Shown piece after piece: positions 2,815 through 26,843 of a stretch of DNA of 34,605 bases (the first letter of the stretch is position 1; every line of letters begins with the position of its first letter). The stretch comes from Bathymodiolus heckerae thiotrophic gill symbiont (lineage in GTDB: Bacteria; Pseudomonadota; Gammaproteobacteria; PS1; Pseudothioglobaceae): contig NZ_FXLV01000010.1 of assembly GCF_900180345.1 (NCBI RefSeq), positions 1 through 34,605 of the forward strand, in the 5' to 3' direction. A program made the position numbers and the translations under genes. The notes under the pieces are model-generated. The model did no database searches. It saw only the letters and a program-made list of their open reading frames with translations, and had not been told where the DNA came from.

Positions 2815-3172
2815 TCAGGCTCTTATCCAAAACGCAACCAGTATTTTTGCTACTCTAATTAGATTTGTTTCACCTAAAGAGACCTTTGCATAAATATGAA
2901 TAATCATCAAAAATCCACTTTTCACCCGCTTGGCGATTTTTTAAACCCAGCCTTAGCCCTGCTAGGACAAGGTTTAATAAAATCACCAATCTGGCAAAAA
3001 TTGAATTTTGCTAATCATCCCTATTTTATGCAAAGGTCTCCTAAAGACAAATATTCCTCATGCGGTAAACAAAGATTAGAGGCTTTTCCCAACGCATTAA
3101 TTTGATAACTGGAAAAGGAATAATTGACAGGATCACTAACCATACCAGCACGCACTGCACCTAAATACAAAA
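2815..3172 (-). pseudogene. Decayed REP-associated (Y1/RAYT-type) transposase, C-terminal part, split by MITE copy 1
   Basis: Reading the minus strand down from about 3172 gives a frame containing AVRAGMVSDPVNYSFSSYQI, then NALGKASNLCLPHEEYLSL. This is the conserved C-terminal pattern (VRAGMV..P..Y.WSSY..., P...YL.L) of the REP-associated tyrosine transposases of the IS200/Y1 superfamily. At TTTAG (3041-3045) the frame is interrupted by MITE copy 1. Removing the MITE and one copy of the 5-bp duplication restores the frame (YLSLGETNLIRV) to a TGA at 2815-2817. The N-terminal catalytic HUH and Tyr part is absent; upstream the frame runs into a truncated MITE end. It is a dead remnant, useful mainly as an empty-site record of MITE insertion. 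Confidence 0.7.
2879..3040 (-). mobile_element. MITE copy 1 (162 bp), inserted in the RAYT remnant
   Basis: Bounded by inverted ends GAGACCTTTGCATAAAT and ATAnnATGCAAAGGTCTC-like sequence, flanked on both sides by the direct repeat CTAAA. Its interior matches MITE copy 3 (25965-26125) in reverse orientation, including the central CCTAGCAGGGCTAAGG core. The left and right arms are themselves imperfect reverse complements, so the whole element can fold into one long hairpin. It encodes no transposase. The short open frame running through it (from 2896) is a by-product. Confidence 0.88.
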
Positions 3173-3186
3173 AACAGCTATAAAAA

Positions 3187-3225
3187 GATCTTTGCATAAA
3201 TATGGATGATTAGCAGAACACAACT
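3187..3225 (+). mobile_element. Truncated MITE end
   Basis: The stretch GATCTTTGCATAAATATGG followed by ATGATTAGCAGAA matches the left end of MITE copy 4 with small differences. Similarity fades after about 40 bp and no matching right end follows. It marks an older, decayed insertion next to the RAYT remnant. The rest of 3226-3355 holds nothing I can name. Confidence 0.6.
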
Positions 3226-3355
3226 TTTGGTAGCAATCTCTATCAGTATTGGTAAATGTTAAGAAAAGTGAAAAAACACAACAAACCCTTTTGCATTAAG
3301 GTTAAAATACTCATCTTAATTTTGGTAAAATCCTATAAAACCTTGCTGAAAGCCA

Positions 3356-3400
3356 CTTCTAAGCCGTAGGTCAAATGTTCGAATCATTTTAGGTGTACCA
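3356..3400 (+). pseudogene. 3' half of a tRNA-Arg (UCU anticodon)
   Basis: From 3356 the sequence reads as a tRNA from the anticodon loop onward: loop CTTCTAA (anticodon TCT), 3' anticodon strand GCCGT, variable loop AGGTC, a perfect 5-bp T stem (AAATG/CATTT) around TTCGAAT, a 3' acceptor strand TAGGTGT, and ACCA. It is similar in layout to E. coli tRNA-Arg(UCU). The 5' half is missing: the bases before the loop do not pair with GCCGT, and no D arm or ACACCTA acceptor strand is found in the expected 32 bases upstream. It ends 10 bp before the intact tRNA-His. Such anticodon-loop-to-CCA halves are the usual scar of tRNA-targeted integrative elements. Confidence 0.65.
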
Positions 3401-3410
3401 CCCAGTTTAT

Positions 3411-3487
3411 GGCGGGAATAGCTCAGTTGGTAGAGCCCCGGATTGTGATTCCGGTTGTCGCGGGTTCAAGACCCGTTTCTCGCCCCA
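3411..3487 (+). tRNA. tRNA-His (GTG)
   Basis: A full cloverleaf is present. The extra 5' G (G-1, 3411) opposite C73 is specific to tRNA-His. The acceptor stem GCGGGAA/TTCTCGC has one G-T pair. The D arm is GCTC...GAGC. The anticodon stem-loop is CCGGA TTGTGAT TCCGG with anticodon GTG. The T stem is CGGGT/ACCCG. CCA is encoded (3485-3487). It is followed at once by a strong terminator. Confidence 0.97.
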
Positions 3488-3521: not shown

Positions 3522-3684
3522 GTTTTGATGCAATCACTACTTGATTAGAATATTCTCGATTTTTAATCATCGCTTGCCAAGTATCTGATATTAACAGATG
3601 TTGCTCGCAAATATCAAGGTGTTTAAATAAAAATCTTGTGTGTATTTCTACGAGTATTATTTAAATTTACGCAAAAATCTCCAG

Positions 3685-3690
3685 TATAAT
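3685..3690 (+). promoter_or_regulatory. -10 box of the lemA promoter
   Basis: A perfect TATAAT lies 31 bp before the lemA ATG, in the only gap between the tRNA terminator and the operon. No good -35 is seen at 16-18 bp. A small hairpin ATCTG/CAGAT occurs upstream near 3584. Confidence 0.4.
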
Positions 3691-3720
3691 TTAAAACAAT
3701 ATCTTTTAAGGAGTTTACGC

Positions 3721-4329
3721 ATGGATTTTTTAATACATAACTGGTTATTAATCACAATTATTGGGGTTTTGATTATTTGGATTGTTAACATTTATAACAA
3801 ATTAGTTTCTTATAAAACCCAATATCAAAATGGTTTTGAGCAAATCTCAGTGCAGCTCAAACGACGCTTGGATTTGATTGGAAATTTGGTTGATGCAGCC
3901 AAAAAATACATGGAACACGAAAAAGAAACGCTCATGGCAGTAACACAAGCAAGGTCTGGACTTTTACAAGCGACACAAGCAGCTGAAAGCAATCCAAGTG
4001 ATGCCAGTGCCATGGCAACATTAGCAAGTTCGCAAGTGGCATTAGAAGGTGCGATGGGTGGATTTAACTTAAAAATGGAAGATTATCCAGAGTTAAAGGC
4101 CAGTGAAAATATGATGCAGTTGTCAGAGGAATTAACCACAACAGAAAATCGAATTTCCAGCGCTCGTCAAGGGTATAACGATTTGGTACAAAAATTTAAT
4201 GAATACAAAAAATCTTTTCCCAATGTTATTTTTGCAGGGATGTTTGGTTTTGGTGCTGATGCACAAAATTTAGAATTTAACGAAAGTATTCAGCAACTTA
4301 ACGAAGCGCCAAAAGATTTATTTAAATAG
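3721..4329 (+). CDS. lemA: LemA family membrane protein
   Basis: The start at 3721 is chosen because AAGGAG sits 7 bp before it; a longer open frame from 3640 lacks a ribosome site. The 202-residue product has one N-terminal membrane anchor (about residues 8-26, WLLITIIGVLIIWIVNIYNK) followed by a helical domain with the LemA pattern VQLKRRLDLIGNLVDAAKKY, and ends with the family's EYKKSFPNVIFA region. LemA proteins are of uncertain function and are commonly encoded beside an M48 membrane protease, as here (17 bp to the next gene). It probably forms a complex with or serves as partner of that protease. Confidence 0.92.
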   Translation: MDFLIHNWLLITIIGVLIIWIVNIYNKLVSYKTQYQNGFEQISVQLKRRLDLIGNLVDAAKKYMEHEKETLMAVTQARSGLLQATQAAESNPSDASAMATLASSQVALEGAMGGFNLKMEDYPELKASENMMQLSEELTTTENRISSARQGYNDLVQKFNEYKKSFPNVIFAGMFGFGADAQNLEFNESIQQLNEAPKDLFK

Positions 4330-24946: not shown

Positions 24947-25810
24947 CCAACTACTTACCTTGATAATAAGGCGTTCAACTGATTTATTGTTTGTGTAATA
25001 ATGATCGGCATTGTTAATAATCATTTGTGCTGACTTTTTATTACCTGCCATCTTAATCAACCTACCCCTGTAGGCTGATAGTTTTCTCACGCCAGAGAAA
25101 TCCTGAGCAGCGTAAATATCCAATAACGGTACTGACATCTTGTGAAATGGAAAGCCATTTACAATCTTCTGATTGTAGTCCGTTGCTCCCATACCAATAC
25201 CAACAAATGCCTTGATTTTATCGTTGTTGTATTTATCCACATAACTCATCGCCATATGTGCGCCGCAACCATGCGCAATCAGCACAATATTACTAATACC
25301 TTTTTCCTGGTAAAAATCAATTGCCGCATCAATGCGCTCGTGCGAATAAGGAAATATTGGCACATAATCATAATATTTAGCCTCTTTGCCTAACACTGGC
25401 ATTTGCACCGATAAAGTATGCCAGCCCTGCTCTGTCAATCCAGTGCGAAGTGGCTTAATGGTGTCCGCCCAGTTAGCGTGCTGCCCACGATTGTGTAGAA
25501 TAATCACACCGCCTTTAGGCTTATCCGCCTCACTTTCCATAAAGATGCTAAACACTTCTTGGTCGTTTTTAAGGGATAAATATTCCACATCGCCATCCAT
25601 CACCGCATCCGCTATCTCATCAACCATTCGTTGTTCTCTAAGAAAATCAGGCTTAGAGTCTACAAACTGATTAAATTCAGCATGTAATTTATTTGGATTA
25701 AAATCACCAAACATTGGCAAATTTGGCAGCTTCAACATACCAGGGATTGGAAACACCGCATACGATACTTGTATCAATAGTAAACTTAATGTTAATAGAG
25801 ACCTTTGCAT
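24932..25810 (-). CDS. Exported DUF3530 family α/β-hydrolase-fold protein, start codon supplied by a MITE end
   Basis: The 292-residue protein has a signal peptide MQRSLLTLSLLLIQVSYA and an α/β-hydrolase fold (VIILHNRGQHANWAD near 103-115; VLIAHGCGAHMAM near 176-188; late D and H in DIYAAQDF and NADHYY). The nucleophile elbow reads AHGCGA, with Gly in the usual Ser position, so hydrolase activity is doubtful, as in much of DUF3530. Its ATG and first four codons lie in the end of MITE copy 2. Removing both MITEs restores MNKLLLTLSLLLIQVSYA with AGGAG before it. No ribosome site precedes the present ATG. The 3' end overlaps the DUF455 gene by 15 bp. Confidence 0.85.
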   Translation of the reverse strand: MQRSLLTLSLLLIQVSYAVFPIPGMLKLPNLPMFGDFNPNKLHAEFNQFVDSKPDFLREQRMVDEIADAVMDGDVEYLSLKNDQEVFSIFMESEADKPKGGVIILHNRGQHANWADTIKPLRTGLTEQGWHTLSVQMPVLGKEAKYYDYVPIFPYSHERIDAAIDFYQEKGISNIVLIAHGCGAHMAMSYVDKYNNDKIKAFVGIGMGATDYNQKIVNGFPFHKMSVPLLDIYAAQDFSGVRKLSAYRGRLIKMAGNKKSAQMIINNADHYYTNNKSVERLIIKVSSWLNAL

Positions 25811-25959
25811 AAATAGGGATGATTAGCAGAATTCAATTTTTGTCAAATTGGTATTTTTTTTAAACTCTGCTCTAGCAAGACTAAGGCTAGGTTTAAAAAA
25901 ATTACCAAATTGGTAAAAAGTGGATTTTTGATGATTATTCATATTTATACAAAGGTCTC
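25798..25959 (+). mobile_element. MITE copy 2 (162 bp), subfamily B
   Basis: Ends are GAGACCTTTGCATAAAT and ATTTATaCAAAGGTCTC, flanked on both sides by TAATA. The interior (CAAATTGGTATTTTTTTTAAA-type arms, AGCAAGACTAAGGCTAGG core) matches copy 4 rather than copies 1 and 3. The left end overlaps the first codons of the DUF3530 gene. Together with copy 3 it accounts for the whole 25811-26135 gap. Confidence 0.92.
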
Positions 25960-25964
25960 TAATA

Positions 25965-26125
25965 GAGACCTTTGCATAAATAGGGATGATTAGCAAAATT
26001 CAATTTTTTCCAGATTGGTGATTTTCTTAAACCTTGTCCTAGCAGGGCTAAGGCTGGGTTTAAAAAATTGCCAAGCGGGTGAAAAGTGGATTTTTGATGA
26101 TTATTCATATTTATGCAAAGGTCTC
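25965..26125 (+). mobile_element. MITE copy 3 (161 bp), subfamily A
   Basis: Ends GAGACCTTTGCATAAAT / ATTTATGCAAAGGTCTC, flanked by TAATA (25960-25964 and 26126-26130); the left TAATA is shared with copy 2. The interior matches copy 1 in reverse orientation (CCTAGCAGGGCTAAGGCTGG core, GCCAAGCGGGTGAAAAG arm). Because copies 2 and 3 belong to different subfamilies, the pair is best explained by two separate insertions at the same target, not by a tandem duplication. Confidence 0.92.
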
Positions 26126-26135
26126 TAATAGTAAT

Positions 26136-26675
26136 TTATTCATTATTTTCTCCTAATTTATCTAGTGCAGTTTGTGCCTGAGGATGTTTGTTTTTCCTAG
26201 CTTTGTCAAACCAATAAGTTGCTTGTTTGCTGTTATTTTGCTCCAAAAACAACGATGCCAAATTAAACTGTGCATATTCATCGTTTGCATTTGCCGCTAT
26301 TAACCACCACTGCCGTGCCTTTTTTGTGTCGCCGTGTCGATAATACAGCATTGCTAATTCACTTTGTGCGTAAGTCAGGCCTTGTTTGGCAGACTTTTCA
26401 AACCACGCAAATGCTTCTTTATCGTCTTGCTTAACACCCAATCCATGCAAATAACTCAGCCCAATATTATTTTGAGCCGCACTATGGCCTGCCTCAGCCG
26501 CACGCATCATCCAGAGAAAGGCATCATCATTGCGTTTTCTCTGAGAATATTCATGTCCAATTCGATACCACGAATCTGCACGACTATCAGCAATCGCTGA
26601 GGGTGCACTTAGTAGTAAGACGAAAAAAAAGGGTGTTATTAGCACCCTTTTTTCCTTTAGTAGAGGTCTTTGCAT
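26136..26675 (-). CDS. Exported Sel1-repeat protein, upstream ATG inside a MITE end
   Basis: Up to 179 residues: a signal peptide (KEKRVLITPFFFVLLLSAPSAIA, cleavage before DSRADS) followed by about four Sel1/TPR-like repeats (AFLWMMRAAEAGHSAAQNNIG; GVKQDDKEAFAWFEKSAKQG; and so on). Sel1 proteins are periplasmic or secreted adaptors. The ATG at 26675 lies in the end of MITE copy 4 (MQRPL...). An alternative GTG at 26645 has AAGGA 7 bp upstream but would drop the basic KEKR n-region. A native TTG start is also possible once the MITE is removed. The stop TAA overlaps the original DUF3530 ATG in ATGAATAA. Confidence 0.8.
   Translation of the reverse strand: MQRPLLKEKRVLITPFFFVLLLSAPSAIADSRADSWYRIGHEYSQRKRNDDAFLWMMRAAEAGHSAAQNNIGLSYLHGLGVKQDDKEAFAWFEKSAKQGLTYAQSELAMLYYRHGDTKKARQWWLIAANANDEYAQFNLASLFLEQNNSKQATYWFDKARKNKHPQAQTALDKLGENNE
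26623..26653. terminator. Bidirectional terminator-like hairpin at the start of the Sel1 gene
   Basis: GGGTG/CACCC with flanking A8 and T6 forms a stem on both strands, with U runs either way. On the minus strand it lies inside the signal-peptide codons of the Sel1 gene and encloses the candidate GTG start at 26645. It may be the former rhodanese terminator, or may limit Sel1 expression. Confidence 0.55.
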
Positions 26676-26825
26676 AAATATGGATGATTAGCAGAATTCA
26701 ATTTTTGTCAAATTGGTATTTTTTTTTAAACTCTGCCCTAGCAAGACTAAGGCTGGGTTTAAAAAAATTACCAAGTTGGTAAAAAGTGGATTTTTGATGA
26801 TTATTCATATTTATGCAAAGACCTC
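26663..26825 (+). mobile_element. MITE copy 4 (163 bp), subfamily B
   Basis: Ends read GAGGTCTTTGCATAAAT and ATTTATGCAAAGACCTC: both ends carry the matched change AC-to-GT, so the inverted repeat stays perfect. The flanks are TAGTA (left) and TAGCA (right), a 5-bp duplication with one difference. The interior matches copy 2. It lies between the rhodanese and Sel1 genes. Confidence 0.92.
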
Positions 26826-26843
26826 TAGCAAGGTAATCAAAGA

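Follow-up and report, generated by a model that had tools for sequence, protein, structure and literature searches.

The 3′ half of a tRNA-Arg(UCU) gene lies directly upstream of an intact tRNA-His(GUG) in the window, the whole 34,605-nt stretch of DNA analysed here, which is an entire contig (C10) of a symbiont genome (G000) assembled into 1.44 Mb on 119 contigs. Because the 5′ boundary of this fragment is sharp and the ancestral flanks have been split, the evidence supports a scar left where recombination broke a tRNA operon, with a tyrosine integrase as the likeliest, albeit unproven, single agent. The account as a whole, in which a dead 3′ half was displaced when such an integrase cut the operon in the Arg anticodon loop, is put forward with moderate confidence.

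Structure of the fragment

The fragment opens with CTTCTAAG and comprises the anticodon loop, the 3′ strand of the anticodon stem, the variable loop, the T arm, the 3′ acceptor strand and the closing CCA, as seen on inspection of the sequence (Table 1). Its T arm is perfect, with positions 3373–3377 pairing with 3385–3389 around the loop TTCGAAT. ARAGORN and Rfam found no tRNA in the window beyond tRNA-His and left the fragment undetected; a 29-base core pattern has one match in the window and none in 100 shuffles. The fragment is a confirmed, real 3′ half of tRNA-Arg(UCU). An initial annotation had described it in these terms, with a perfect T stem and an intact tRNA-His alongside, and the sequence agrees; its start was placed correctly, but its end at 3410 is 10 nt too far, as positions 3401–3411 form the 11-nt spacer before tRNA-His. 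The lack of a 5′ half, which was also claimed, holds in G000, where the anchored score of the window sequence upstream of the fragment was reached by 2890 of 5000 shuffles. The same fragment is present in the sister genome G006, where there is a weak hint of a 5′ half (score reached by 161 of 5000 shuffles and 488 of 11436 slid windows).

Table 1. Features around the tRNA-Arg fragment in the window
Feature	Position	Strand	Remarks
T2SS pseudopilin genes gspK, gspJ and gspI, with an N-methylation-motif protein at the gspH position	376–2678	−	abut the repeat debris
Self-complementary repeat, 170 nt, MITE-like	2876–3045		ends like GAGACCTTTGCATAA
Partial copy of the 170-nt repeat	3181–3229		
Promoter-like element CAAACCCTT-N9-GGTTAAAATA	3282–3309	+	once per genome in six genus genomes, just upstream of tRNA-His
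Leader, from promoter-like element to fragment	3310–3355	+	without significant Arg 5′-half similarity in G000
tRNA-Arg(UCU) 3′ half, without 5′ half	3356–3400	+	anticodon loop to CCA
tRNA-His(GUG), intact	3412–3487	+	ARAGORN; Rfam RF00005, 62.6 bits
lemA	3640–4329	+	ancestral downstream neighbour of the operon

An ancestral operon and its split

An intact tRNA-Arg(UCU), with which the annotation had proposed a comparison, exists in a tRNA-Pro(UGG)–tRNA-Arg(UCU) pair on contig C53 of the same genome, and its 3′ half is 84% identical over 49 nt. It was the sole other match to an 80-base query in the 1.44 Mb searched, leaving no further copy of the 45-bp segment, for which a search had likewise been suggested. 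The genome contains 35 tRNA genes, as does the single-contig genome G003. A split, permuted or intron-bearing tRNA was ruled out by the intact gene, and there were no intron-family matches. Contamination was ruled out for C53, which shows 68–92% identity with each of six relatives in aligning 300-base windows and reaches approximately 100% in tRNA genes only. The genes ahead of the Pro-Arg pair encode a dnaQ-like exonuclease and an omega subunit (Rpb6 family).

Three of the 12 genus genomes (G007, G008, G010) keep Pro-Arg-His together and G011 keeps Arg-His, while His is separate from Pro-Arg in G000, G001, G003, G004, G005 and G009; G006 yielded fragment-His alone, and G002 no matches. In a wider search of 76 genomes, which included these 12, the operon query was covered from base 1 to at least 247 in at least 20 rows among the matches listed, all from the same family. 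Blast comparison of C53 and C10 with the relatives assigned the C53 genes to the Pro side and lemA to the His side of one ancestral locus, and the ancestral state of the family is a Pro-Arg-His operon between the dnaQ-like gene and lemA. The named genomes with lemA matches are Bathymodiolus gill symbionts, Candidatus Thiodubiliella, Ruthturnera, Ruthia, Vesicomyosocius and Thioglobus, and the genome under study is that of a Bathymodiolus-type thiotrophic gill symbiont.

In G000 these flanks are divided, with Pro-Arg on the dnaQ side and the fragment and His on the lemA side; C53 and C10 are unjoined in the assembly, and their flanks agree with the ancestral order. The missing Pro-Arg of G006 and G002 most plausibly reflects an assembly gap, since the dnaQ-like gene is absent too, which in G006 ruled out a biological loss. 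Elsewhere in the genus, G011:C18 carries what looks like a decayed tRNA-Pro upstream of its tRNA-Arg, with an intact tRNA-Pro on C42. A seemingly decayed His behind Arg in G001 was rejected, as 296 of 2000 shuffles equalled its score.

The annotation had also placed mobile debris in the 2.7–3.3 kb region, and the 170-nt repeat with its partial copy bears this out. Three further copies of the repeat occur in the window, which carries it at 25798–26126 and 26656–26826 as well as at 2876–3045, and C53 has two full copies and a partial one; several genomes of the genus share this MITE-like repeat, and in the present case it lies at a breakpoint. The homologous block of G006 loses its match at window position 2702 and goes on with different sequence; the gsp-His junction is thus G000-specific, or possibly a misassembly.

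Divergence of the fragment

Between G000 and G006, the Arg part differs at 7 of 49 aligned positions, compared with 0 of 76 in tRNA-His and 6 of 60 in the flank upstream of the promoter-like element. The fragment is thus not conserved as a tRNA would be, and its rate of evolution is neutral. Neutral rate, lost cloverleaf and an intact copy elsewhere together match the criteria for a bacterial tRNA pseudogene. The G006 fragment differs at 3 of 45 positions from the Arg genes of G004 and G009 and at 6 of 45 from the intact Arg of G000; for the G000 fragment the corresponding values are 6 and 7 of 45. These low distances suggest that the 3′ half was nearly intact shortly before G000 and G006 split, and since the 5′ half of G006 is gone at only 3 of 45 differences, its loss was presumably sharp and fairly recent. 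This points to a sharp cut over slow decay, with some doubt from the weak 5′ signal of G006. Across the genus, the 5′ half of tRNA-Arg(UCU) is nearly invariant (0 or 1 of 32 differences), and the T stem of the G003 and G005 genes differs wholesale, as if 3′ halves had been exchanged.

The boundary and tyrosine integrases

According to the Islander study (PMC4383910), the crossover sites of tyrosine integrases in tRNA genes are the anticodon loop, the T loop and the T-acceptor junction. When IMG/VR was scanned for the 3′ half of Arg, at least 120 stretches matched, of which 80 were listed. Among those listed, four are cut by the locus end, which leaves 76 scorable matches, 38 with a 5′ half and 38 without; the latter represent 22 distinct left contexts. 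In 19 of these 22 contexts (again among the matches listed) identity ends exactly before CTTCTAAG, as in the window, a count that is biased because the search pattern itself began there. Furthermore, integrase-type domains were found in four of five tested proteins near the provirus 3′ halves. Because provirus 3′ halves stop at this position, often with an integrase nearby, the boundary in the window is a usual att boundary.

The left arm, by contrast with the boundary, is unlike that of the proviruses: scored against the provirus left arms, it does no better than 36% of window positions in G000 and 57% in G006, in a test of our own that lies outside the published Islander criteria and in which 9 of 13 leave-one-out controls ranked in the top 11%. 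No integrase or island was found beside either half, in the tested stretch of the window or on C53, where the annotation had suggested looking for a nearby integrase gene. G000 has five PF00589 matches, none of them on C10 or C53, and the DNA between the contigs is unseen. Of the proposed attachment-site scar, the sharp boundary and split flanks therefore uphold a recombination scar, while an integrase att site is compatible with the data but unproven, given the absent integrase, the dissimilar left arm and the His promoter-like unit upstream, which species lacking the fragment share.

The case resembles the tDNA 3′ fragments of Islander islands (PMC4383910) in that an intact tRNA gene is accompanied by a cognate 3′ fragment, in what may be the right configuration, and the fragment starts in the anticodon loop, a named crossover subsite; it differs in that no integrase or island is seen and the halves are on separate contigs. 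Islander looks for a cognate intact tRNA gene, here tRNA-Arg(UCU) on C53; for a fragment that reaches the tRNA end, here one closing in CCA; for a location on the same replicon in the right configuration and orientation, 2–200 kb apart, here two unjoined contigs whose flanks fit the ancestral order; and for an integrase between the two, for which C10 and C53 hold no PF00589 match, the gap being unseen. A clear, clean att scar exists within the genus at G011:C25:3647–3699, where a 52-bp tRNA-Lys(UUU) 3′ fragment, which like the Arg fragment runs through CCA, lies approximately 210 bp from an integrase match; unlike the Arg fragment, it is 100% identical to the tRNA-Lys of its own genome, has an integrase near and starts at nt 25. 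An independent case is found in another genus of the family (G029:C1, approximately 440340–442420). There, as in G000, Pro-Arg is intact and a dead Arg relic precedes His, but the relic extends back to nt 18 (nt 18–76), and a continuous 1.8 kb with no integrase match connects the two halves. The Arg fragment is an ordinary kind of recombination scar, of a kind already known, and the available parts of the literature on tRNA, integrases and genomic islands of Bathymodiolus symbionts do not mention it.

Integrase remnants were observed at two other tRNA loci. At G010:C41:14233–14415, a C-terminal remnant lies approximately 120 bp 3′ of tRNA-His and shares 85% identity across 82 aa with an open frame of G011:C25, which also carries the Lys-site integrase. 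At G000:C30:11932–13254, an integrase remnant and a PemK/MazF-like gene come after tRNA-Ser(UGA), and the locus is probably an island in decay.

The presumed tRNA-His promoter and the origin of the fragment

The promoter-like element CAAACCCTT-N9-GGTTAAAATA, allowing up to two mismatches, occurs once each in seven of 12 genomes and its reversed pattern in none; it lies just upstream of tRNA-His in G000, G001, G003, G004, G006 and G009, with the seventh match in G002, and from this placement is the presumed tRNA-His promoter. A split-off His is found at a common radA locus in G001, G003, G004, G005 and G009, with extra DNA between in G004. In G000, G002, G007, G008 and G010, radA has no His behind it; the next gene is a putative glnS (by eye) in G000, G002, G007 and G010, and a neighbour gene follows in G008. 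For G000:C70, the radA tree places G000 with G002, G007, G010 and G011 (99/99) and the purL tree with G006 (100), a conflict that could reflect recombination between symbiont lineages; as species trees, both are single-gene trees that disagree on G000.

In the preferred account, the ancestral Pro-Arg-His operon would have been cut within the Arg anticodon loop by a tyrosine integrase that integrated an element, whose attP would have restored Arg and displaced the old 3′ half. Pro and a complete Arg would thus remain next to the dnaQ-like gene, and His with the old half next to lemA, tRNA-His presumably being transcribed now from the promoter-like element approximately 100 bp upstream. The integrated element may since have been lost, been rearranged by repeats, or lie in the assembly gap. 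That promoter-like element also precedes His at another locus in G001, G003, G004 and G009, so this left-hand neighbour of the fragment is not the end of an ordinary island, and for the same reason ordinary recombination is a serious rival. An integrase-free rearrangement that fused a His promoter unit, such as that of the radA locus, to what remained of the old operon, the Arg 3′ half with His, is a tenable but doubtful origin. The single element per genome, the His unit at radA in five relatives and its lack there in G000, G002, G007, G008 and G010, TACCACCCAGTTTATG kept before His in G003 as in the window, and the repeats and the G000-specific gsp junction all speak for it; against this, leader similarity past the promoter is insignificant (0.055–0.65 of shuffles), several events would be required, and a cut exactly at the anticodon loop is left unexplained. 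It is quite unlikely that a mobile promoter–(Arg remnant)–His unit shifts between loci by repeat-mediated recombination, on the lemA side in G000 and G006 and on the radA side in the five relatives, with the fragment as a by-product.

Slow decay and function are both unlikely origins. The annotation had considered a decayed gene of a former Arg-His operon and named, as what would refute a scar, an intact Arg at this place in relatives with gradual 5′ decay; the operon and the intact Arg are indeed found contiguous in relatives, but the 5′ loss is sharp rather than gradual. In-place decay of a redundant, complete second tRNA-Arg ahead of His, its 5′ half decaying faster, would suit a leader of about the right length, the weak alignment of the G006 upstream bases with the Arg 5′ half and the G029 relic between Pro-Arg and His, which reaches back to nt 18 (0 of 3000 shuffles). 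Nevertheless, it is improbable, as G000 lacks 5′ similarity although its 3′ half is 84% identical, and neutral decay is expected to strike both halves equally. A role for the fragment as a functional RNA element, such as in tRNA-His transcription or processing, is scarcely credible: T-stem pairing is preserved in G000 and G006 alike, a C-G pair in one standing against T-A in the other, and RNA of the G006 leader has a slight folding advantage over shuffles (15 of 200), yet the G000 leader folds no better (97 of 200), the rate is neutral, and the fragment is absent from five of the seven split-off-His genomes, with G003 retaining just its last bases. A functional RNA fold is thus unsupported by the comparison with shuffles, and the neutral rate together with an RNA of no special folding makes the fragment look dead.

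Implications

The fragment leaves the general understanding of tRNA genes and islands unchanged. If the unit carrying tRNA-His were indeed mobile, an essential single-copy tRNA gene would change place between symbiont species. The fragment is of use for annotation, as a note, and for marking rearrangement in the genus, and the case documents the dismantling of a conserved tRNA operon in repeat-rich mussel symbionts.
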